22,190 bases of DNA, from NCBI GenBank assembly GCA_026770585.1, contig MU646527.1:126195-148384 (forward strand), written 5' to 3'. This stretch comes from Baffinella frigidus (taxonomy: Eukaryota; Cryptophyceae; Cryptomonadales; Baffinellaceae). Position 1 is the first letter of the stretch; every line of letters begins with the position of its first letter. A program made the position numbers and the translations under genes. Of this stretch, positions 742-20,136 are shown piece by piece. Under the pieces are notes generated by a model. It saw only the letters and a list, made by a program, of their open reading frames with translations, searched no databases and had not been told where the DNA came from.

Positions 742-914
742 TCTTTGGGGTTTAAGGTTTGAGGTTTAGGATTTAGGGTTTAGGGTTTAAGGTTTGGGGT
801 TTAGGGTTCAGGATTTAGGGTTTAGGTTTTTTAGGGTTTACGGGTTAGGATTTAGGGTTTAGGGTGTAGGGTTTAGGATTTAGGGTTTAGGGTTTAGGGT
901 TTAGGGTGTAGGGT
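742..914 (+). repeat. Degenerate TTTAGGG heptamer array A
   Basis: About 24 heptamer-like units (TTTAGGG with variants TTTAAGG, TTTGGGG, TTCAGGA, TGTAGGG). The heptamer is that of Arabidopsis-type telomeres, but the units are heavily diverged and internal, so this is not a chromosome end. Confidence 0.9.
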
Positions 915-1906: not shown

Positions 1907-2257
1907 ATGTTCACCATGAAGATCGCTGCCCTCGCCTTCATCGGCTCCGCCGCCGCCTTCTCCCCGACCATGCAGATGTCGACCGGCCGCCGCGCCGCCA
2001 TCCAGGGCGCCGGCGCCGTCGCCATCGCGGCTCCCCTCCTCCGCACGTCGGGCGCCTCCGCGGCGATGAAGAAGGACAACAACGCCCCGATCATCACCAT
2101 CTTCGATGCCCGTGGTGGCTGCACCGCCAAGGCCGACCAGTACACTGGCGCCAAGTCCAACTCCGCCGACGACAAGATGTGCGTCAAGGTGCAGATGTCC
2201 AAGGTCGTCGCCGGCAACGCCGACGCCGTCCTCCAGGGCGTCCTCGGCCAGCTCTAA
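1907..2257 (+). CDS. Cryptophyte phycobiliprotein alpha subunit, gene 1 (RGGC type)
   Basis: A 116-residue light-harvesting phycobiliprotein alpha subunit. In cryptophytes two such chains cap two plastid-encoded beta subunits in the thylakoid lumen, each alpha holding one bilin through a cysteine. Seen here: residues 1-18 are a secretory signal ending AAF; Phe18 is followed by a short Ser/Thr-rich transit stretch; GRRA at 27-30 with the hydrophobic run after it is a twin-arginine lumen signal; an Ala-Ser-Ala site (50-52) leaves a mature chain starting Ala-Met-Lys, like known mature alpha chains. The mature part has ITIFDARGGC with Cys72 as the likely bilin anchor, then YTGAKS and DDKMCVK. The ATG lies in a CCAACCAACATG context shared with gene 2. 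No intron is needed. The motif has one more residue (RGGC) than the RGC of gene 2. The family assignment is firm; the bilin type and the exact isoform cannot be read from sequence alone. Confidence 0.93.
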   Translation: MFTMKIAALAFIGSAAAFSPTMQMSTGRRAAIQGAGAVAIAAPLLRTSGASAAMKKDNNAPIITIFDARGGCTAKADQYTGAKSNSADDKMCVKVQMSKVVAGNADAVLQGVLGQL

Positions 2258-3059: not shown

Positions 3060-3088
3060 ATCACTGTGGGTCTCAATTGGGAGGCACG

Positions 3089-3184
3089 TATCCCTTAAGT
3101 GGCCATGCCGTCGGCCAAGAGGTCCTAGGCAGGTCCTAGGGCCCTACGGTAGGGCGTATGAGCCTACTGGCCGCTTGAGAGGTA
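3089..3184 (+). mobile_element. MITE-B copy 1
   Basis: Terminal repeats TCCCTTAAGTGGCC and (diverged) GGCCGCTTGAGAGG between TA dinucleotides. The interior carries two AGGTCCTAGG boxes and CCCTACGGTAGGGCGTATG. Confidence 0.8.
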
Positions 3185-3456: not shown

Positions 3457-3571
3457 TATCCCTTAAGTAGCCATAGGGCGAATATGTGTACAATATTCAC
3501 CCTAACTCGTCGTAGGCAGGTCCTAGTGCCCTACCGTAGGGCGTATGAGCCTACTGGCCACTTAAGGGATA
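3457..3571 (+). mobile_element. MITE-B copy 2, nested in a MITE-C end
   Basis: Ends TCCCTTAAGTAGCC and GGCCACTTAAGGGA between TA dinucleotides. The sequence outside (CTGGTTTA / GCCCAGATACCCCTGTA) is the MITE-C right terminus, so the insertion split that terminus at its internal TA. Confidence 0.85.
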
Positions 3572-3962: not shown

Positions 3963-4091
3963 TAGAGAGGGGTACCTCGCTCAGAAGAAACCGCCTTCCC
4001 CTAGCTGGCACCCTACAGTAGGCCTAGGGTCCCATGGCGAACCAGGGGGGGGGGTGCTTTCTTATGAGCGAGGTACCCCTGTACCCCTGTA
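3963..4091 (+). mobile_element. MITE-A copy
   Basis: Left end diverged (TAGAGAGGGGTACCTCGC); the right end is intact and followed by a second CCCCTGTA. The final TA is shared with the next element, MITE-B, at 4090. Confidence 0.8.
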
Positions 4092-4194
4092 TCCCTTAAG
4101 TGGCCATGCCGACAAATTTGAGGGGCAATAGGTCCTAGGCAGGTCCTAGGGTCCTACGGTAGGGCGTATGAGCCTACTGGGCACTTAAGGGATA
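4090..4194 (+). mobile_element. MITE-B copy 3
   Basis: Full element with TCCCTTAAGTGGCC ends and TA on both sides. It sits in the terminal TA of the preceding MITE-A, so it probably inserted after it. Confidence 0.88.
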
Positions 4195-4328
4195 GGGGTG
4201 CCTTGCTCATAAGGTGCGGAGATTCTGAAACGCCCGCCCTGTCTTTCTTAATTATTAGAAACGCAGGGGAAAACCCCGCCCAGCCGGTTTCTGCTGCGAT
4301 CCTCTGCACCGGGGGGGCTGATGTGATC

Positions 4329-4412
4329 CGAAAGGAAGCATGGATTTTCTGCAGATAAGTTCCAGTGTTCGCCTATGTTGGGAGCTCGAAGAGCCTAAAG
4401 GACCTCAAGGCC
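4329..4412 (+). repeat. Repeat D copy 2
   Basis: GAAAGGAAGCATGGATTTTC, TTCCAGTGTTCGCCTATG and a GAAGAGCCTAAAGGACC core. It is preceded by the longer extension GGTTTCTGCTGCGATCCTCT, also seen before the copies at 7880, 12128 and 12668. Confidence 0.85.
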
Positions 4413-4861: not shown

Positions 4862-5083
4862 TACAGGGGTACCTCGCTCATAAGAATCCGCAACCCCTCT
4901 AGGACCACCACAGGGCCCTTCACATGGGCCTACTGTAGGGTCCTAGGGGGAGGCGTTTTCTTATCCCTGAAGTGGCCAGGCGGTTAAATTTGACCGCCAA
5001 GAGGTCACAGGCAGGTCCTATGGCCATACGGTAGGGCGTATGAGCCTACTGGCCACTTACGGGATAAGTGAGGTACCCCTGTA
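4862..5083 (-). mobile_element. MITE-A copy with a nested MITE-B
   Basis: Ends CAGGGGTACCTCGCTCATA (left) and GAGGTACCCCTG (right), TA on both sides. The right arm is split at its TA by the MITE-B at 4962-5066. Confidence 0.87.
4962..5066 (+). mobile_element. MITE-B copy 4, nested in MITE-A
   Basis: TCCCTGAAGTGGCC ... GGCCACTTACGGGA between TA dinucleotides, inside the right terminal repeat of a MITE-A. Confidence 0.87.
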
Positions 5084-5235
5084 ATCGTTGTGAAGCGTGC
5101 AGCAAGCGCTCTCACTGACGTTGTCAATAAACAACACCAGGGTGCCCCGTGTGCCGTTATTTCCGTTATTGTGCTGGGCGGTCTCAGCCCGGGAGTGGTG
5201 CAGCCTCACTATACAGTACATGTACACGGTTAGAG

Positions 5236-5357
5236 TACAGGGGTACCTCGCCCATAAGAAACCGCGCCCCCGTAGGACCCTACAGTAGGGCTACGCCTAG
5301 GGCCCTACGGTGGTCCTAGGGGGGGGCGCAGTTTCTTATGGTCGAGGTACCCCTGTA
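5236..5357 (+). mobile_element. MITE-A copy, downstream of alpha gene 3
   Basis: Intact foldback with TA on both sides. It lies about 110 bases beyond the stop of alpha gene 3, in or near its 3' flank. Confidence 0.88.
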
Positions 5358-5374
5358 CAGTAGACGGTGAGAGT

Positions 5375-5457
5375 GGTGTGGGTATCCAGGCGCTAAGGGT
5401 ACCTAAGGACGCAAGGTCATGCGGACGCGAACGTAGATTCACTCAGGCCTCCGAGGG
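5375..5457 (+). repeat. Repeat E copy 1
   Basis: GGGTATCCAGGCGCTAAGGG ... AAGGACGCAAGGTCATGCGG ... TAGATTCACTCAGGCCTCCG matches 11289-11368 and, inverted, 15868-15957. It ends a few bases before the stop of alpha gene 3, on the opposite strand. Confidence 0.7.
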
Positions 5458-5464
5458 GGCGAGC

Positions 5465-6304
5465 TTAGATCTGGCCGAGGACGCCGTTGAGGACGGCCGC
5501 GGCGTTGCCGGCGACAACCTATTTTCGGGTTCAGGGTTTAGGGTTCAGGGTTCAGGGTTCAGGGTTTAGGGTTTAGGGTTTGGGATTTAGGATTTAGAGT
5601 TGAGGGTTTAGGGTTTGGGGTTTAGGGTTTAGGGTCTGGTTTTGAGGGCTTAGGGTTTGGGGTTTAGGGTTTGGGGTTCAAGGTTTAGGGTTTGGAGTTG
5701 GAGTTGAGGGTTTGGGGTTAGGGGTTAGGGGTGTAGGGTTAGGGTTTTGGGTTTTGGGTTTAGGGTTTGGGTTCTCGGGTTTGGGGTTTAGGGTCCGGGG
5801 ATTAGGGTGTAGGGTTTAGGGTATAGGGTGTAGGGTTCAGGGTGCAGGGTGCAGGGTTGAGGGTTTAGGGTTCAGGGTTTCGGGTTTCGGGATTAGGGAT
5901 TACGGTTGAGGGTTTAGGGTTTAGGGTTTAGGGTTCACGGTGCAGGGCGCGGGGTTGAGGGTTTCGGTAAAAACCTCCTTGAGCTGCAGCTTGACGCACA
6001 TCTTGTCGTCGGGGGTGTTCGACTTGGCGCCAGTGTACTGGTTGGCCTTGGCGGTGCAGCCACCACGGGCATCGAAGATGGTGATGAACGGCGCCTGGTT
6101 CTTGCGGGTGAGGAGCTGCAGCTCCTTCGGCCCGGGGGCGCCGGCGGCGGCCGAGGCGCCGTCCGGGCGGAGGAGCGGGGCCGCGAGGGCCGCGGCGCCG
6201 GCGCCCTGGATGGCGGCGCGGCGGCCGGTCGACATCTGCATGACCGGGTTGAAGGCCGCGGCAGAGCCGATGAACGCGAGAGCAGCGATCTTGGTGGTGA
6301 ACAT
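5465..6304 (-). CDS. Phycobiliprotein alpha subunit, gene 3, two exons (6304-5975 and 5518-5465)
   Basis: Light-harvesting alpha subunit, 127 residues if spliced. Exon 1 (minus strand, 6304 to 5975, 110 codons) starts MFTTKIAALAFIGSAAAF, carries GRRA at 27-30, an Ala-Ser-Ala processing site (50-52), a longer mature N-terminus than gene 1 (11 extra residues, with PGPKELQLL), then ITIFDARGGC with Cys83, YTGAKS and DDKMCVKLQLKE. The frame then runs into CCCTAA-type repeats. Exon 2 (5518 to 5465, 17 codons plus TAA) encodes VVAGNAAAVLNGVLGQI, which aligns with VVAGNADAVLQGVLGQL of gene 1. Joining the exons restores frame in phase 0, and the junction dinucleotides are GT and AG. It is probably a working gene with an intron; if the array is not spliced out, the product would be truncated and end in repeat-coded residues. 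The bases after the stop (TAAGCT) match gene 1. A repeat E copy and a MITE-A lie just downstream. Confidence 0.85.
5519..5974 (-). other. Intron of alpha gene 3, made of telomere-like heptamers
   Basis: This 456-nt stretch separates the two halves of alpha gene 3. On the coding strand it begins GTTTTTACCG after AAGGAG and ends CCCGAAAATAG before GTTGTC, a canonical GT...AG phase-0 intron. Nearly all of the interior is degenerate CCCTAAA/CCCTGAA/CCCTCAA heptamer, that is TTTAGGG-type on the + strand. The pentamer AGGTT occurs at both edges (5972-5976 and 5516-5520), consistent with a short target duplication at an AG/GT site. CTAAA and CTGAA units could act as branch-point-like sequences (inference). 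Genes 1 and 2 have no interruption here. Splicing is predicted, not seen. Confidence 0.82.
5521..5968 (+). repeat. Degenerate TTTAGGG heptamer array B (intronic)
   Basis: Heptamer-like units with variants TTCAGGG, TTTGGGG, TGCAGGG, TTGAGGG and TGTAGGG. It fills the intron of alpha gene 3, with CCCTAAA in the sense direction of that gene. Confidence 0.92.
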
Positions 6305-6319
6305 CCTGGTGGGTGGTGG

Positions 6320-6850
6320 GAGGATCAGAGGCAGTTTCACGCGCAAGGGATCCTGCTCCGGGGTTACCGCCTCGGTGGTCCGACACCAGACTGGTTCACG
6401 GCTGCACGTTCGAGATGCTGGATCGTGTAACTTGTCCACACGTGAGCTCCCAGCAATTGGCGGTCCGATCCAGTTGAGGCACGCGCTCAGCTGGATCGGA
6501 CCGGAGCGAGGCTGCGGTTGGTCCCCAGCTCCCCAGATGTTACCTGGCCTCCTACTGACTTCCTGTCTTAGGCCCTGGCGACTCCCCAGGAGCGAGTCCG
6601 ACTGCTCCTGGCTGACCAGGCCGAAGTCGGCTTGCTAAGCCGGCGGCTAGGAGAGCGGCGATACAGGCAATGCTCTTTCTGCTCAAAGAGCATAAGGAGC
6701 GGGCGGCGAGGAGGTCAGGCGGGAGCACGGGGGACCTGGGACTTGGGGGGGCCAAAAAAATGTGACGTGGTTCCACAGGTTATGTAGAGGACCCCAAACG
6801 GCTCCAATGTCATCAATCGCGAGTAGTGCCGTTTTTAGGGGTTCCATGAT
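6320..6850. other. 5' flank of alpha gene 3, unassigned
   Basis: No gene recognised. Holds an imperfect stem-loop with 18-base arms, CGGTCCGATCCAGTTGAG (6461-6478) and CTCAGCTGGATCGGACCG (6486-6503). It should include the promoter of gene 3 on the minus strand; no motif can be named. Confidence 0.45.
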
Positions 6851-6953: not shown

Positions 6954-7035
6954 GTCGAACTTTTCGCATTGTTCTAAGAAATCGAGGTCTGGGGGCAGCT
7001 AGATTCGAGAAATTGAGGGTTGTGTTTGACATGTA

Positions 7036-7111
7036 GGAAGCATGGCCTTGCTGCAGAACAAGTTCCGGTGTCCGCCTATGTTGGGAGCTCGAAGAACCTA
7101 AAGGACCTACA
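7036..7111 (+). repeat. Repeat D copy 3
   Basis: AGGAAGCATGGCCTTGCTGC, GTCCGCCTATGTTGGGAGC and GAAGAACCTAAAGGACC. Confidence 0.85.
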
Positions 7112-7323
7112 GGTCCGCACCGCGCTCCACAAATCCGAAACCACATTGGTGAACCAACTTTTGGGGGCGCGGCCCGGATCATCATCCTAAAATTCCCACT
7201 ACTGCACCCTCCCAACTTGCTTCCTTTCCAGAAGCAGCGCACCGCCGCAGAGAATCACAGCCTGGCGGGACAGAAGCGAAAGAAAGGATTGCTTTTTCAA
7301 TTGCTTTGTTCCTAAAGGTTTGA

Positions 7324-7412: not shown

Positions 7413-7470
7413 TCTCTCTCTTTCTTGCATGAGTCCCACAGCGCAAGAGAAGCAGGAAGCTGCTCGTGCG

Positions 7471-7592
7471 TACAGGGGTACCTCGCTCATAAGAAACCGC
7501 CCCCCCCTAGGACCATACAGTAGAACCACTCCTGGGACCCTATGTTGGTCCCAGGGGGGTGGGCGGTTTCTTATGAGCGAGGTACCCCTGTA
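7471..7592 (+). mobile_element. MITE-A copy
   Basis: Intact arms of about 30 bases with TA on each side. A conserved full-length copy. Confidence 0.9.
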
Positions 7593-7657
7593 GCGGGCTC
7601 TGCAGAAGCAGCACACCTACGCAGAGAATCGCAGCCTGGCGGGAGCGAAGCAAAAGG

Positions 7658-7733
7658 AAGCATTGCTTTTCTGCAGAACCAGTTACAGTGTATGCCTATG
7701 GTGAGAGTTCAAAGAACCTCAAGGACCTGAAGG
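7658..7733 (+). repeat. Repeat D copy 5
   Basis: GGAAGCATTGCTTTTCTGCA, AACCAGTTACAGTG and AAGAACCTCAAGGACC. A short GGAAGCGGCACAGAGGAT tandem follows at 7735-7795. Confidence 0.8.
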
Positions 7734-7734
7734 A

Positions 7735-7795: not shown

Positions 7796-7879
7796 GCAGA
7801 GGCGGAGGCGGCGGTGCAGCAGAAGGCAATTTTTTTTACTGCTACGATCCTCTGCACCGGGGAGGGCTAGAAGTGATTC

Positions 7880-7963
7880 GAAAAGAAGCAGGGATTTTCT
7901 GCCGAACCAATTCCAGTGTCCGCATATGTTGGGAATTGGAAGAACCTAAAGGACCTAAAGGGC
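7880..7963 (+). repeat. Repeat D copy 6
   Basis: AAAGAAGCAGGGATTTTCTG, TTCCAGTGTCCGCATATG and GAAGAACCTAAAGGACC, with the longer 5' extension (CTGCTACGATCCTCTGCACC) ahead. Confidence 0.85.
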
Positions 7964-8375: not shown

Positions 8376-8655
8376 CACAGTGTGATTAAATCCGTAATCC
8401 GTAATCTGAAATTAAATCTCCAATTCTTAATCTCTAATCCTTGAAGCCTGAAGCCTAACGAGTAATTGCACATCGCTAGACCTTAAACCCTCAGCCCTGA
8501 ATCCCAAACCTAAACCCCAAACCCCAAACCCTCATTCCTAATCCCTAACCCCTAACCCCGAACCCCTAACCCCTAATCCATAAAGCGTCAAGCCTAATGC
8601 CTAATCGCTAATCAATAAATCCTGAACCCTAAACCCTAAACCCTTAAACTCTGGA
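8376..8655 (-). repeat. Degenerate CCCTAAA heptamer array C
   Basis: TAATCC, CCTAAACC and CCTAACCC units in the orientation opposite to arrays A and B. A short relative lies at 8896-8930. Confidence 0.85.
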
Positions 8656-8679
8656 CCCGAATCAAGGCCACTTCGACTT

Positions 8680-8752
8680 GCCTTTTCTGCAGAACCAGTT
8701 CCGGTGTCCACCTATGTTGGGAGCTCGAAGAACCTGAAGGACCTAAAGGACT
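8680..8752 (+). repeat. Repeat D copy 7
   Basis: TTCTGCAGAACCAGTTCCGG, TCCACCTATGTTGGGAGC and GAAGAACCTGAAGGACC. Confidence 0.85.
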
Positions 8753-8932: not shown

Positions 8933-9345
8933 AGATTTATTCAAGAGGCTTCAGGATTCACTTAGGAGGACTCAGGAGTCAGTTAAGAATGTGCAGATAA
9001 GTTCCAGTGTCCGCCTATGTTGGGAGCTCGAAGAACCTAAAGGACCTAAAGAAACAGGTTTCAGGATTCAGTCAGCAAAAAGTTGGTGCGCTTTCCCAAA
9101 AAGACTTGGGATGTTGTCAGCAAGACACGGGATTCAGTCAGGATGACTCAGGATTTGGTCAAAAAGACTCAGGATTCAGTCAGGATGATTCAGGATTCAG
9201 TCAGGATGACTCAGGATTTAGTCAGATAGACTCAGGATTTGGTCAAAAGACCCAGGGTTCACTCGGAAGGTCTCACGATTCGGTCAAGAGGTCTCAGGAT
9301 TTATTCAGGAGGCCTCAATATGGTCAACAGGCCTCAGGATAGCAG
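8933..9345 (+). repeat. 21-bp minisatellite, split by repeat D
   Basis: Unit TCAGGATTCAGTCAGGATGA, about 21 bp, clear from 9061 to 9345, with a few older units at 8933-8990. Repeat D copy 8 sits between the two parts. Because 21 is a multiple of 3, one frame stays open and spells QDDSGFS repeats, but no gene structure supports translation. Confidence 0.85.
8992..9053 (+). repeat. Repeat D copy 8, inside the minisatellite
   Basis: AAGTTCCAGTGTCCGCCTATG core and GAAGAACCTAAAGGACC, lying between minisatellite units, so this copy arrived after the minisatellite began to form or was captured by it. Confidence 0.8.
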
Positions 9346-9489
9346 GACACCAACCCTCAACCGGACACCCTGATTCCCAAACGCCAAGTCCTGCACCTCG
9401 CCCCCGGAATTCTGTGTTGCACGGCGTCCTAACCCGTCCTTACTGAATCGTGAGTCGTTCCGACTGAATCGTGTGTCGTTCTGACACAG

Positions 9490-9612
9490 TCAGGCATCGT
9501 CTTGATCGAATCCTGAGTCGCCCTGCATGAATGCTGGGTCGCTCTGATGGAATCCTGAGTCGTCCTGAGTAAATCCTGAGTTGTTCTCACTGAATCCTAA
9601 GTCGCTGAGTGA
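9490..9612 (-). repeat. Inverted partner of the 21-bp minisatellite
   Basis: GAATCCTGAGTCGTCCTGAG and variants, the reverse complement of the unit at 9061-9345. The spacer 9346-9489 has nothing recognised. Confidence 0.8.
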
Positions 9613-11819: not shown

Positions 11820-12115
11820 GGTTTCTAGGCCGACTTGGGCCCCTGGTGTGTGTGTGAACATGGCAACCATTGGTATCTTCACACGCCCCACTTGAGGACG
11901 ACCCTTCAGCCAACTTTCATTTTGGAGTCTTGTTTGGTTTGCGATCTGCGGAGGTATCCGTGGATGGAGCTCTGCTCAATCATTTGATACCTTGGGTCTT
12001 CAGCCGACTTGGGTCCCCCGCGTGTGTGGCCAGAAATTGATGTCTATACGCTGTCGCGTGCCCCACTTTAGACTACCCTTTAGCTGGCTTTCTGCTGCGA
12101 TCCTTTGCCGGGGGG
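11820..12115 (+). repeat. Two direct repeats of a 100-bp unit before repeat D
   Basis: GCCGACTTGGGCCCCTGGTG ... CGCCCCACTTGAGGACGACC (11829-11905) recurs as GCCGACTTGGGTCCCCCGCG ... TGCCCCACTTTAGACTACCC (12003-12080). The second runs into the 5' extension of repeat D. A related piece lies at 12580-12640. Confidence 0.65.
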
Positions 12116-12127
12116 CTGGATGTGATC

Positions 12128-12205
12128 CGAAATGAAGCATGGCTTTTCTGCAGAACCAGTTCCAGTGTCCGCCTATGGTGGGTGTTGCAAGAATATAACG
12201 GAGTT
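12128..12205 (+). repeat. Repeat D copy 11
   Basis: CGAAATGAAGCATGGCTTTTC, TTCCAGTGTCCGCCTATG; the 3' part is diverged. Confidence 0.8.
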
Positions 12206-12264
12206 CCTGCACTGAAGGGTTTGATCCTTGAAAAGCAGCCAGGCCATTCTGCACGATAACAGGA

Positions 12265-12496: not shown

Positions 12497-12667
12497 CTAC
12501 GTTCAATAAAGCTCCCATAGCTCCCTCATGCGTCCTCCCCATTCGTGGGAGGAGCTGGACCTGTTTGATCAGAATATTATCTCTTGGGGAACACGTGCAA
12601 ACTTGAGGACTATCCTTTGGCCGGTTTCTGCTGAGATCCTCTGCAGGGGGGGGCTTGATGCGGTCCG

Positions 12668-12752
12668 GAAGGAAGCACTTCTTTTATACAGAACCAGTTC
12701 CAGTGTCCGCCTATGTTGGGAGCTCGGAGAACTTGAAGGACCTAAAGGGGGT
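12668..12752 (+). repeat. Repeat D copy 13
   Basis: GGAAGGAAGCACTTCTTTTA, TTCCAGTGTCCGCCTATG and GAGAACTTGAAGGACC, with the longer 5' extension at 12628-12660. Confidence 0.85.
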
Positions 12753-13421: not shown

Positions 13422-13799
13422 ATGTTCACCATGAAGTTCGCTGCCCTCGCCTTCATCGGCTCCGCCGCCGCCTTCTCCCCGACCATGTCCGTGTCGACCG
13501 GCCGCCGCGCCGCCATCCAGGGCGCCGCCGGCGCCGCCATCGCGGCTCCCCTCCTCCGCCCGACTGAGGCTGAGGCGGCGTCCAAGTACGCGGGTGCGAT
13601 GTACGCTAACCCCTCCGCGCCGGTGCTTACCCTCCTCGACCACCGTGGCTGCTCGCGCCAGGGCACCGAGTACAAGGGGCCCAAGGCGAACGACCAGGAG
13701 GACGAGCAGGTTGTCATCCTTCGCATGCAGAAGGTCGGCCCGGGTGAGGCTGGCGCCGCCCGCTTCCTGTCCAACGTCATCGGCGAGTTCAACGCGTAA
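13422..13799 (+). CDS. Phycobiliprotein alpha subunit, gene 2 (RGC type)
   Basis: A 125-residue alpha subunit of the cryptophyte phycobiliprotein, expected in the thylakoid lumen. The presequence is almost the same as in gene 1: MFTMKFAALAFIGSAAAF, a short transit stretch, GRRA at 27-30 and a hydrophobic core. The mature domain is clearly different. It has a longer N-terminus (roughly SKYAGAMYANPSAP), the bilin motif LLDHRGC with Cys77, then EYKGPKAND, EDEQVV and a C-terminus ending FLSNVIGEFNA. The loop DHRGC is one residue shorter than DARGGC in genes 1 and 3, as in classical closed-form alpha chains. DNA identity with gene 1 is very high over the presequence and drops sharply after it. The leader CCACCACCAACCAACATG matches gene 1. 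It could be the partner alpha chain in a heterodimeric antenna (inference). Confidence 0.93.
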   Translation: MFTMKFAALAFIGSAAAFSPTMSVSTGRRAAIQGAAGAAIAAPLLRPTEAEAASKYAGAMYANPSAPVLTLLDHRGCSRQGTEYKGPKANDQEDEQVVILRMQKVGPGEAGAARFLSNVIGEFNA

Positions 13800-14321: not shown

Positions 14322-14542
14322 TACAGGGGTACCTCGCTTATCCCTTAAGTGGCGAGTAGGCTCATACGCCCTACGGTAGGGCCCTAGGACCTGCCTAGGG
14401 CGAGTTAGGGTGAATATTCGCCCGTCCGCCACTTAAGGGATAAGAAACCGCCTCCACCTAGGACCCTACAGTAGGACCATGCCTGGGGTCCTACGGTGAT
14501 CCTAGGGGGGGGGCGGTTTCTTATGAGCGAGGTAACCCTGTA
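14322..14542 (+). mobile_element. MITE-A copy with nested MITE-B, in the zinc-finger remnant
   Basis: Outer ends CAGGGGTACCTCGCT and GAGGTAACCCTG with TA on both sides. The left arm is split by the MITE-B at 14339-14442. Confidence 0.87.
14339..14442 (-). mobile_element. MITE-B copy, nested in MITE-A
   Basis: TCCCTTAAGTGGCG ... CGCCACTTAAGGGA, TA on both sides, inserted at the TA of the MITE-A arm (CATAAGAAA). Confidence 0.9.
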
Positions 14543-14704
14543 CTGACGGTGCATTTAGCGCAAGCCAGGGGCACCTTCTCGATGGGAGGAGATGTTCAGT
14601 GCACGCCACGCCGCCTGACTGTGCACATGCGGATCCATTCTGGAGAAGCCGTGGATGTGTGAGACATGCGGCAAGGTCTTCTTCTAACAGTCCGGCATGC
14701 TGAC

Positions 14705-14826
14705 TACAGGGGTACCTCGATTACAAGAAAACGTCACTCCCCCTAGGACGACCATAGGGCCCTAGGCATAGGCCTACTGTAGGGTCCTACGGGGAGGCGT
14801 TTTCTTGTAATCGAGGTACCCCTGTA
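14705..14826 (-). mobile_element. MITE-A copy splitting a finger helix
   Basis: Ends CAGGGGTACCTCGATTACAA and its mirror, TA at 14705-14706 and 14825-14826. Removing the element and one TA makes CTGACTAGGCAAATGCGG continuous, reading LTRQMR in the finger frame. Confidence 0.9.
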
Positions 14827-15187: not shown

Positions 15188-15227
15188 CGATGGGGGAGAC
15201 GCGCGCGTCCGAACTAGGCAGTAACTG

Positions 15228-15346
15228 TACAGGGGTACCGCGCTCATAAGAAACCGCCACCACCGGACCCTAAAGTAGGGCTATGCCTAGGGCCTTGTGG
15301 TGGTCCTAGGGGGGGGGGCATTTCTCATGAGCGAGGTACCCCTGTA
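15228..15346 (+). mobile_element. MITE-A copy
   Basis: Intact, TA on both sides. The left arm has one change in its KpnI-like GGTACC neighbourhood (GGTACCGCGC). Confidence 0.88.
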
Positions 15347-15454
15347 GGGTGAGCGGGTTGGTCAGGAAACGTGTACCGCCTTACTCTCTCGCTACATTTA
15401 CAGCCCTATCTCGTGCTATGACCCTATGGTGGTCCTCTATCAGCACAGATGACA

Positions 15455-16214: not shown

Positions 16215-16255
16215 TCCCTCAAGTGGCCAGGGGGTCATGTGTGACCCTCCACAGG

Positions 16256-16382
16256 TACAGGGGTACCTCGCTCATAAGAAACCGCCTCCCCGTAGGACCC
16301 TACAGTAGGGCTATGCCCAGGGCCCTCTGGTGGTACTGGCGGGGGGGGGGGGGGGCTTTCTTATGAGCGAGGTACCCCTGTA
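16256..16382 (+). mobile_element. MITE-A copy
   Basis: Full-length with TA ends. It has a G run of about 15 where other copies have 5 to 9. Confidence 0.88.
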
Positions 16383-17202: not shown

Positions 17203-17251
17203 GTCAGGACGGACCCTAGGACGGGCCCGCCTCAGGCAGGGAGAAGCCATT

Positions 17252-17645
17252 TGGGGTTTAGGGTTTCGGGTTTCAAGTTTCGGGTTTCGGGTTTCGGGTT
17301 TAGGGTTTAGGGTTTTGGGTTTTGGGTTTCGGAGTTTGGGGTTTAGGGTTTGGGAGTTTAGGGTTTGGGGTTTGGGGTTTGGGGTTTAGGGTTTAGGGTT
17401 TAGGGTGTAGGGTTTAGGGTTTAGGGTGTAGGGTGTAGGGTTTAGTGTGTAGGGTGTGAGGTGTGGGGTGTAGGGTGTAGGGTCGAGGATTTAGGGTTCA
17501 GGGTTCATGGTTGAGGGTTTAGGTTTTACGGTGAAGGGTGAAGGGTGTATGGTCGAGAATTTGGGGTTTACGGGTTAGGTGTTAGGGTGCAGGGTGTAGG
17601 GTGTAGGGTGTAGGGTGGAGTGTTCATTTTTTAGGGTTTAGGGTT
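17252..17645 (+). repeat. Degenerate TTTAGGG heptamer array E
   Basis: TTTAGGG, TTTCGGG, TTTGGGG and TGTAGGG blocks. TGTAGGG clusters at 17400-17480 and 17590-17625. Confidence 0.92.
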
Positions 17646-17691
17646 GCTCGAAATCACGGAAACGCGCCGCCAAAAGGTCCTACGGTACAGC

Positions 17692-17852
17692 AACAGGGGT
17701 ACCTCGCGCATAAGAAACTGGCTCCCCCTAGGACCCTACAGTAGGGCTATGCCTAGGGCCCGATGGTGGTCACCCTACAGTAGGGCTATGCCTAGGGCCC
17801 CATGGTGGTCCTAGGGGGGGGGGCAGTTTCTTATGAGCGAGGTCCCTCTGTA
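17692..17852 (+). mobile_element. MITE-A copy with an internal 39-bp duplication
   Basis: Normal ends, but the central unit (ACCCTACAGTAGGGCTATGC ... ATGGTGGTC) occurs twice in tandem, 17733-17771 and 17772-17810, making this copy about 160 bp. Confidence 0.87.
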
Positions 17853-18012: not shown

Positions 18013-18073
18013 ATATCACTCAAGTGGCAAGCGTGTGTCATATTGGACCCCACGAAGGTCGTACGCTTCCACC

Positions 18074-18178
18074 TATCCCTCAAGTAGCCAGTAGGCACAT
18101 ACACCCTACGGTAGGGCCCTAGGACCTGCCTAGAACCTCTTGGTCGTCAAATTTGACGGCATGGCCACTTAAGGGATA
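18074..18178 (-). mobile_element. MITE-B copy
   Basis: TCCCTCAAGTAGCC ... GGCCACTTAAGGGA with TA ends, inner box GTCAAATTTGACGGCATGG. Confidence 0.88.
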
Positions 18179-18271
18179 GGCCTAAATAGGAGCAGTATGA
18201 GGCTAATCGCCACCTCAGAGATACGCACCCTTTCTTTTCCAGTGGGTCTATTCGGTCCACTAGAACGTTAC

Positions 18272-18316
18272 GGTTTAGGGTTTAGGGTGCAGGGTTTAGG
18301 GTTTAGAGTTTAGGGT

Positions 18317-18347
<31 letters not shown>

Positions 18348-18570
18348 AGGTTTTAGGTTTAGGGTTTAGGGTTTAAGGTTCAGGATTGAGGGTTTAGCAT
18401 TCAGGGTTCGGGGTTTGGGGTTTCGGGATTCGGGTTTGGGGTTTGGGGGTTCGTGAACCGGGTTTCGGTTTTTGGTCTCCGGGTTTCGGGTTTCGGGTTT
18501 GGGGGTTCGGGTTCCGGGTTCCGGGTTTCGGGCTTCGGGTTCCGGGTTTCGGGTTTCGTATTTCGGGTGT
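18272..18570 (+). repeat. Degenerate heptamer array F (TTTAGGG to TTTCGGG)
   Basis: Starts as TTTAGGG, then a pure TTGAGGG run near 18315-18345, then TTTCGGG/TTCCGGG from about 18420 on. Confidence 0.9.
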
Positions 18571-19274: not shown

Positions 19275-20047
19275 CTCGACTAGGGTTTAACGTCTAGGGT
19301 TTAGGGTGTAGGATTTAGGATTTAGGATTTAGGGTTTAGGTCTTAGGGTCTAGGGTTCAGGGTTCAGGGGTTTAGGGTTTAGGGCTTAAGGTTTAGGGTT
19401 CAGGATGCAGGGTTTAGCATTTGGAGTTAACGGTTCAGGATTTAGGGTTTAGGGTTTAGGGCTCAGGGTTAAGTTTGTAGGGTCTGGATGAAGGGTTCAG
19501 GGTTCAGTATTTAGGGTTTAAAGTTTAGAGTTTGGGGGGTTGGGGCTAGGGTTTAGGGATCAAGGTTCAGTGGTTATAATTTAGGGTTTAGGGTAACGGG
19601 TTCAGGGTTTAGGGTGTAGAGTTTAGGGTGTAGGGTTTGGGGTTGAGGGTTGAGGGTTTAGGGTTCAGGGTTTAGGGTTGAAGCGTGAGGGTTTAGGGTT
19701 TAGGGTTTTGGGCTTAGGGTTTTGGGTTTAGAATTTAGGATTTAGGGTGTAGGGTTTAGGGTTTAGGGTTTAGGGTTTAGGGTTTAGGGTTTAGGGTTTA
19801 GGGTTCAGGGTTTCAGGCATCGGGTTTCGGGTTTCGGGTTCAGGGTTTAGGGTTTAGGTTTCAGATTTTCAGGGTTCAGGGTTCAGGGTCTAGGGTTTAG
19901 AGTTTAGAGTACAGAGTTTAGAGTTGAGGGTTCAGGGTTTAGGGTTTAGGGTTTAGGGTTCGGGGTTTTGGGTTTGGGGTTTGGGGTTTGGGGTTTGGGG
20001 TTTGGGGTTTGGGGTTTGGGGTTTGGGGTTTGGGGTTTATGTTTTAG
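19275..20047 (+). repeat. Degenerate TTTAGGG heptamer array G (longest)
   Basis: About 770 bases of heptamer-like units. It contains a pure TTTAGGG run of about 7 units (19752-19804) and a pure TTTGGGG run of about 9 units (19971-20038). Confidence 0.93.
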
Positions 20048-20136
20048 GGAGGTTTTCCTGTCATGATGAAACGTGGATGAGAGGATCTCAGCAAGCATTC
20101 CATACATGGGTATCTCGAATACAGAGATATCTCGAA

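Follow-up and report, generated by a model that had tools for sequence, protein, structure and literature searches.

Introduction

The origin of new introns is an old open question, and many of the clear cases derive from transposons. Several described systems come close to the locus reported here. In the chlorarachniophyte Amorphochlora amoebiformis 26 new GT/AG introns are recorded in 12 ribosomal-protein genes: half contain [AT]n repeats, nine lie at AG|GN sites of an intron-lacking relative and, in the parts of the paper drawn on here, they are described as having neither conserved sequence nor terminal inverted repeats (PMC12730881; this and all other papers are cited for the parts drawn on). 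Introners are intron-creating insertions, some families of which have target duplications of 3-9 bp and some terminal inverted repeats (PMC9860276), and direct repeats of 4-30 bp at or near the borders of 213 introns have been read as marks of insertion (PMC11782384).

Telomeric repeats can also be inserted far from chromosome ends. In mammals, interstitial telomeric sequences arise by addition of telomeric repeats at double-strand breaks, with target duplication at 6 of 130 rodent, 4 of 25 primate and 3 of 66 horse loci, the horse figure referring to duplication alone (PMC2246262, PMC7215372). In humans 31% of these sequences lie within introns (without making up the intron) and none, in the part of the report used here, in an exon; effects on splicing are left by the authors for future testing (PMC7215372). 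In yeast, telomeric tracts have been placed in an artificial intron of URA3, a gene that serves as a selectable reporter; by implication, a telomeric tract need not block splicing (PMC6410037).

Here we describe a stretch of 22,190 nucleotides from the cryptophyte Baffinella frigidus (contig MU646527.1, positions 126,195 to 148,384; hereafter the window), in which a light-harvesting gene (gene 3) carries a TTTAGGG-type array between coding exons, with a paralogous empty site in gene 1: a candidate interstitial telomeric sequence. Like the introns of Amorphochlora (as far as they are described in the parts used), it would be a new, repeat-bearing intron with GT/AG ends; unlike those introns, with their [AT]n repeats, it consists almost entirely of telomere-type heptamers, and its empty counterpart is seen in a paralogue rather than an orthologue. 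Like Introners, it would be an intron-creating insertion with a direct repeat, of 5 bp; inverted repeats of at least 12 nt at the insert (in 5200-6420; shorter ones would be missed) were not found. Unlike the short TTAGGG-type stretches of mammals, the array interrupts coding sequence and seems to have turned into an intron, and unlike the tract in yeast URA3, which is an engineered construct in a pre-existing intron, it is natural. For the introns with border repeats, the relevant part of PMC11782384 mentions none of telomeric type. A search for precedent of a natural spliceosomal intron of telomere-like repeat found none among the papers listed from an open-licence full-text collection from which most subscription journals are absent. 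That inserted repeat DNA may become an intron was already known; what is probably new is telomere-like DNA as the source. We put at about 70% the probability that telomere-like DNA entered a protosplice site of gene 3, probably in the course of repair of a break, and is removed from the transcript by splicing.

Results

An alpha-subunit gene interrupted by telomere-like DNA

The features of gene 3 are:

6304-5975, minus strand: exon 1, with ATG at 6304; 110 codons, leader and most of the mature chain (translation, PF02972)
5974-5519, minus strand: proposed intron, 456 nt, GT...AG, a degenerate CCCTAAA heptamer array in the sense direction
5518-5465, minus strand: exon 2, 17 codons and a stop, encoding VVAGNAAAVLNGVLGQI
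5972-5976, minus strand: left copy of the AGGTT direct repeat, at the donor (AG|GTT); the maximal repeat across the junction is AG + GTT
5516-5520, minus strand: right copy of the AGGTT direct repeat, at the acceptor (AG|GTT)
5537-5541, minus strand: the final CTAAA, 22 to 18 nt from the intron end; a possible branch site by the position of the motif, which is not a strict yTnAy
5933-5938, minus strand: candidate alternative in-frame donor, GTGAAC, which would add 12 residues and give a 139-aa product with the native C-terminus

A preliminary description had placed the break in the frame at 5974, the 456-nt array beyond it and the resumption at 5518, and these coordinates are exact. The array begins with GTTTTT and ends with AAAATAG, contains 59.3 copies of TTTAGGG at 5523-5935 (TRF) and has stops in all three frames. 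The two exons join in phase 0 to encode 127 aa, with the GT and AG junctions, phase and length that had been proposed. The joined protein has a match to PF02972 (57.7 bits against a gathering cut-off of 22.5; E 1.1e-15) and also matches 12 distinct PDB sequences, all of them named cryptophyte phycobiliprotein alpha chains. In a 39-row alignment that includes gene 3 the leader aligns with the family leader throughout, and D78 and C83 (the C of DARGGC) are nearly invariant; we take this cysteine to be bilin-binding. These matches identify gene 3 as coding for an alpha subunit of cryptophyte phycobiliprotein.

Exon 2 corresponds to the C-terminus of the family in the alignment and to the end of gene 1, as expected if it is the missing C-terminus, which is how it had been described. 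Length is uninformative here: a product read through to the first stop would have 110 + 17 aa, that is, also 127, so that 127 aa alone lends splicing no support. The sequence of the predicted tail, unlike its length, does.

Paralogues and the insertion site

Two further alpha-subunit genes are present in the window:

1907-2257, plus strand: gene 1, intronless paralogue, 116 aa; AAG|GTC at 2201-2206, AGGT at 2202-2205
13422-13799, plus strand: the third alpha gene, of DHRGC type, encoding 125 aa without an intron

In a tree of 36 mature alpha sequences (three truncated homologues being left out), gene 1 and the database sequence P0001 are closest to gene 3 (support 97/91). Gene 1 is uninterrupted and reads AAG|GTC where gene 3 breaks. 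Nucleotide identity between the two genes is 88.1% over 42 codons in the mature part of exon 1 and 88.9% over 18 codons between exon 2 and the end of gene 1. Both neighbours had been said to be without an intron at the site. Both are indeed uninterrupted, but only the gene at 1907-2257 is informative, that at 13422-13799 being of a divergent alpha type. Beyond the window, 33 of the 36 homologues (many of which may be from cDNA) continue through the break site in the alignment; the other three, P0033, P0035 and P0036, end or deviate ahead of it.

The tetranucleotide AGGT occurs once in the 384-nt spliced coding sequence of gene 3 (in 2 of 380 five-base windows), and that single occurrence is the site of the array. 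The AGGTT repeat is, however, partly implied by any intron placed in AG|GT: the flanks themselves supply part of it, and we therefore do not count repeat and splice ends as independent signs.

Some observations concern the family at large. The mature part of gene 1 is identical to that of P0001 (ENA), which bears a leader like that of gene 3; the mature part of the gene at 13422-13799 is identical to that of P0032, from transcriptome MMETSP0986 (B. frigidus), and again the leaders differ. By these protein matches the window would be placed in B. frigidus or a close relative. Identical mature chains with differing leaders in both pairs suggest, as far as sequence comparison goes, leader exchange or gene conversion among alpha genes. 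Scans of genome and viral contig collections gave no relatives of the gene 1 protein, and the window gave no match to Rfam at gathering scores.

Signals for splicing

In the sense direction the array contains only three GT (intron positions 1, 37 and 72) and four AG (200, 325, 338 and 455), compared with 60 GT and 46 AG on the antisense strand; no AG starts between positions 339 and 454. Motifs resembling a branch site are plentiful – 17 CTAAA, 3 CTAAC, 2 CTAAT, 6 CTGAA and 6 CTCAA, 34 altogether – and the last CTAAA occupies positions 434-438 of 456. The strict motif yTnAy has six copies, the last at position 254, about 200 nt from the acceptor; the lack of a strict motif near the acceptor makes the intron reading less certain. 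Predicted folding of the 456-nt RNA gives a minimum free energy of -9.3 kcal/mol in sense and -93.7 kcal/mol in antisense. The donor, GAG|GTTTTT, agrees with the consensus at five of nine bases (a general consensus, which may not be that of this lineage), and the last 30 nt of the proposed intron are rich in C and A, with no T-rich tract ahead of the acceptor.

All combinations of GT and AG at least 40 nt apart were examined (24). A single one gives a protein of family length with the native end; two others also restore the native C-terminus, one of the products being 12 residues longer and the other 7 residues shorter. Random insertion was simulated by placing pieces of the window's other arrays (listed below) into spliced gene 3 in 20,000 trials. 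When the insert was in C-strand sense it was exactly removable by GT-AG splicing in 1.3% of cases with a 5-nt duplication and in 0.01% with none; for G-strand sense the corresponding values were 3.2% and 2.7%. Since G-strand arrays find usable ends more often, the ends alone neither favour nor explain the orientation seen in gene 3.

Constraint and expression

Neither exon contains a stop or frameshift, and the two are about equally near to gene 1 (above). A stop is expected in only some 35% of neutral runs, however, and the absence of stops is thus weak evidence. More telling is the nature of the substitutions: 10 of the 12 amino-acid differences from gene 1 in the mature chain are states present in other members of the family (32 compared). 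Under neutral simulation the mean was 24%, and 10 of 12 was not reached in any run without a stop (about 65% of 5,000 runs). For exon 2 alone the count is two of three (P = 0.12 with 32 homologues, 0.04 with 13). The constraint recorded by this comparison could predate the insertion.

Purifying selection on the mature parts, which we had hoped to see in dN/dS, was not seen: Nei-Gojobori values for gene 3 against gene 1 are 1.11 for the mature part of exon 1, 1.21 for exon 2, 0.35 for the leader and 0.64 overall. The tree gives gene 3 a branch of 0.25 and gene 1 a branch of 0. Mature ratios and branch length are as would be found under relaxed constraint or diversification. In Guillardia theta each of the 20 alpha genes has been detected at the protein level (PMC5784005). 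Families of alpha chains are diversified, so that fast change need not mean the death of a gene, though recent loss is possible.

The 36 homologues obtained from a search of 5.77 billion proteins include neither a spliced nor an unspliced product of gene 3. As none of the three alpha genes of the window has an exact match among these homologues, this lack is weak evidence.

Telomere-like DNA elsewhere in the window and in B. frigidus proteins

Apart from that in gene 3, the window contains these telomere-like arrays, all dispersed:

744-914, plus strand: telomere-like array (TRF and scan)
8476-8649, minus strand: telomere-like array in the opposite orientation, with the G-rich strand on minus
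17250-17645, plus strand: telomere-like array (TRF and scan)
18268-18556, plus strand: telomere-like array (TRF and scan)
19281-20049, plus strand: telomere-like array, the longest

A 21-mer scan assigns 2,480 bases to telomere-like DNA (11.2% of the window, in ten stretches); the same scan of one mononucleotide shuffle of the window assigned none. The assembly of Baffinella CCMP2293 measures 534.5 Mb, of which 41.1% is repeats (PMC9756366). The arrays at 744-914 and 17250-17645 begin alike, with TTTGGGGTTTA, and have gctc just past the end; they are perhaps copies of one unit, and their shared ends make a mobile origin of the arrays possible.

Peptides of telomere-like kind were also sought in proteins. 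A query with such a peptide gave 786 matches from 7,990 scored candidates (those sharing most words). Among the best 120 of the 786, 11 of the 12 with an NCBI source are gene models of B. frigidus; a longer query (best 120 of 159 matches) added two further named models, P0186 and P0233. The second of these is a model of RIO1. It can be aligned to human RIO1 as far as K250; the next residue, V251, opens the telomere-like run VFKPETRTPEP; read-through of gene 3 gives VFTETLNP at the junction. The K|V junction of P0233 thus resembles the E|V of gene 3, as MAG|GT would give. Two more proteins look like the case of P0233: the alignment of P0066 (RRM) ends at about SCKV, and that of P0132 (Dus) at GIDQM, before QV. 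The V of P0066 may be native, for human PABP1 also has ILSCKV. At the protein level all three are hints of telomere-like introns. In addition, P0233 has a telomere-like insert of 19 residues (122-140) that interrupts the conserved kinase domain and has no counterpart in human RIO1; it would be either an intron wrongly read as coding in the gene model or a genuine in-frame insertion.

No general signal emerged. Of 218 listed proteins with telomere-like peptides, 22 had no array by the rule applied and 48 had fewer than 45 residues before the array; in the remaining 148, [KQE]V stands at the array start 24 times (22 proteins) and at the control position 18 times (16 proteins), raw counts that differ little. 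For this reason only single, aligned cases are relied on. A subset bearing Pfam domains was chosen post hoc, the pattern having been noticed beforehand; 24 of the 32 listed Pfam proteins were examined (the 32 less P0189, P0193, P0196, P0224, P0239, P0244, P0245 and P0250), and domains were confirmed. Nine look eukaryotic and have an array that runs to or near the protein end: P0066, P0132, P0158, P0173, P0206, P0211, P0220, P0230 and P0233. By eye, [KQE]V marks the change-over in all but P0206 and P0211 (7 of 9); the automatic rule finds four of the seven. Several look-alikes, for instance P0098 (SpoU family), in which STLN repeats are in frame and the domain resumes afterwards, look bacterial rather than telomeric and were not counted.

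The preliminary description had called introns built from telomere-like DNA rare. That view has to be tempered: given telomere-like DNA over 11% of the window and within B. frigidus gene models, RIO1 among them, the array as such is not exceptional here, and introns built from telomere-like DNA may be common in the Baffinella lineage.

One homologue of gene 3 deserves separate mention. In P0036 (ENA), an open reading frame of the alpha family, residue 61 is followed, at PQ|V, by a peptide of CT-rich simple repeat with one telomere-like motif, much like the CT array that occupies 249-383 of the window. It is possible, from the peptide, that P0036 represents a second repeat-built intron in the alpha gene family.

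Discussion

Alternative explanations

The main rival to the intron reading is that gene 3 is a recent pseudogene: insertion of the array would have ended its function, and the GT/AG ends would be a by-product of the 5-bp AGGTT duplication, unused or poorly used. The weak donor, the missing T-rich tract and the lack of a strict branch motif near the acceptor all fit such a history, as do a mature dN/dS near 1, the long branch of gene 3 and the absence of its product from the 36 homologues; the family is, moreover, redundant, with three copies in the window and 20 in G. theta (PMC5784005). Yet only 1.3% of random C-strand-sense insertions with a 5-nt duplication are exactly removable, both exons are free of stops and frameshifts (weak in itself, as noted) and about equally diverged, and the substitutions are mostly ones that the family tolerates. 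On this evidence we regard a dead gene as unlikely. A different possibility grants the array a role in some messages, in which it would be kept, giving the tail VFTETLNPAPCTVNPKP, or spliced from the donor at 5938, giving the 139-aa isoform with its 12-residue insert. The in-frame GTGAAC and the weakness of the primary donor speak for it, but neither product is among the 36 homologues and the read-through tail is unlike any C-terminus in the family alignment; partial or regulated splicing of this kind seems to us very improbable. Least credible of all is a telomere-like tract mis-joined into gene 3 during assembly. Such repeats are hard to assemble, but a chance join would hardly have placed GT...AG at the gene's sole AGGT and kept both exons whole. 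Of the preliminary description, gene identity, coordinates, splice ends, phase and the empty site of the paralogue are correct, and the weight of the additional tests lies with an intron rather than with a broken gene, splicing as such being a prediction.

Where the array came from is a separate matter. Instead of a repair insertion it might be a member of a mobile, intron-generating family similar to Introners, an origin compatible with splicing. Six TRF arrays in 22 kb, a 5-bp direct repeat within the range of target duplications (3-9 bp) of some Introners (PMC9860276) and the start and downstream gctc common to the arrays at 744-914 and 17250-17645 would all agree with mobility. No inverted repeat of at least 12 nt lies at the insert, however (the two inverted pairs in 5200-6420 are elsewhere), and the ends of the gene 3 array differ from those of the other five, so that a mobile origin is, in our estimate, rather improbable. 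We prefer insertion during repair, with moderate confidence.

How telomere-like DNA may become an intron

Under the preferred reading, namely repair insertion followed by splicing, telomere-like DNA would have been inserted at a staggered break, or with duplication of a 5-bp target, at AG|GT, as sometimes happens at mammalian interstitial telomeric sequences. Duplication of AGGT would provide the GT donor and the AG acceptor together and would leave the spliced mRNA in frame. With the C-rich strand in the RNA, the intron body would have few GT and AG, little secondary structure and many possible branch motifs similar to CTAAA; the first AG after a late branch point would then be the true acceptor, and mature gene 3 protein would be made from the spliced message. 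From the composition of the sense strand we infer that telomere C-strand RNA is close to a blank intron body.

The same properties allow a wider reading, which we offer tentatively and rate below even odds: in Baffinella-type cryptophytes spreading telomere-like arrays may be a running source of new spliceosomal introns, through C-strand-sense insertions at AG|GT. Such insertions would be introns at once by virtue of their CTAAA motifs and near lack of competing GT and AG, while those in G-strand sense would fail, having GT and AG in nearly every repeat and strong structure. That simulated G-strand arrays obtain usable ends more often makes this reading less certain. If it is true, intronic arrays should show an orientation bias genome-wide, a prediction that makes the idea testable with the existing genome and RNA-seq of one alga.

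Gene 3 offers an unusual combination: the donor DNA is recognisable, the empty site can be read in a close paralogue at a distance of about 3 kb, and the sequence offers a reason why splicing could have been immediate. Should RNA confirm the intron, telomere-type DNA would join the identified sources of introns. The case is relevant, too, to what is still to be settled in mammals (PMC7215372): how telomeric repeats affect splicing, and what follows when they land in a coding exon.

Other repeats in the window

The window holds several other repeat families. A foldback (MITE-like) family of about 120 bp is bounded by TACAGGGGTACCTCGCTCATAAGAAA and the reverse complement of that sequence; a 123-nt stretch recurs in nine copies at 60% identity or more, with inverted matches elsewhere. 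A second foldback family, TATCCCTTAAGTGGCC...GGCCACTTAAGGGATA, lies in places inside the first, an arrangement that to the eye suggests nested insertion. A further repeat, dispersed and with the core CCGCCTATGTTGGGAGCTCGAAGAACCTAAAGGACCTAAAG, has 8 copies of 104 nt and 11 of a 60-nt part. Positions are:

5235-5358, 1-123, 7470-7592, 14421-14543, 14704-14826, 15225-15347, 16255-16377, 17691-17813: TACAGGGGTACCTCGCTCATAAGAAA foldback family
3080-3184, 3467-3571, 4090-4194, 4962-5066, 14322-14418, 18072-18178: TATCCCTTAAGTGGCC...GGCCACTTAAGGGATA foldback family
1178-1281, 4308-4411, 7011-7114, 7631-7734, 7859-7962, 8647-8750, 12108-12211, 12646-12749: CCGCCTATGTTGGGAGCTCGAAGAACCTAAAGGACCTAAAG dispersed repeat

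A tandem array of the 21-bp unit GTCAGGAAGACTCAGGATTCA occupies 9116-9317 and is followed at 9435-9604 by a 21-bp array that resembles its reverse complement.
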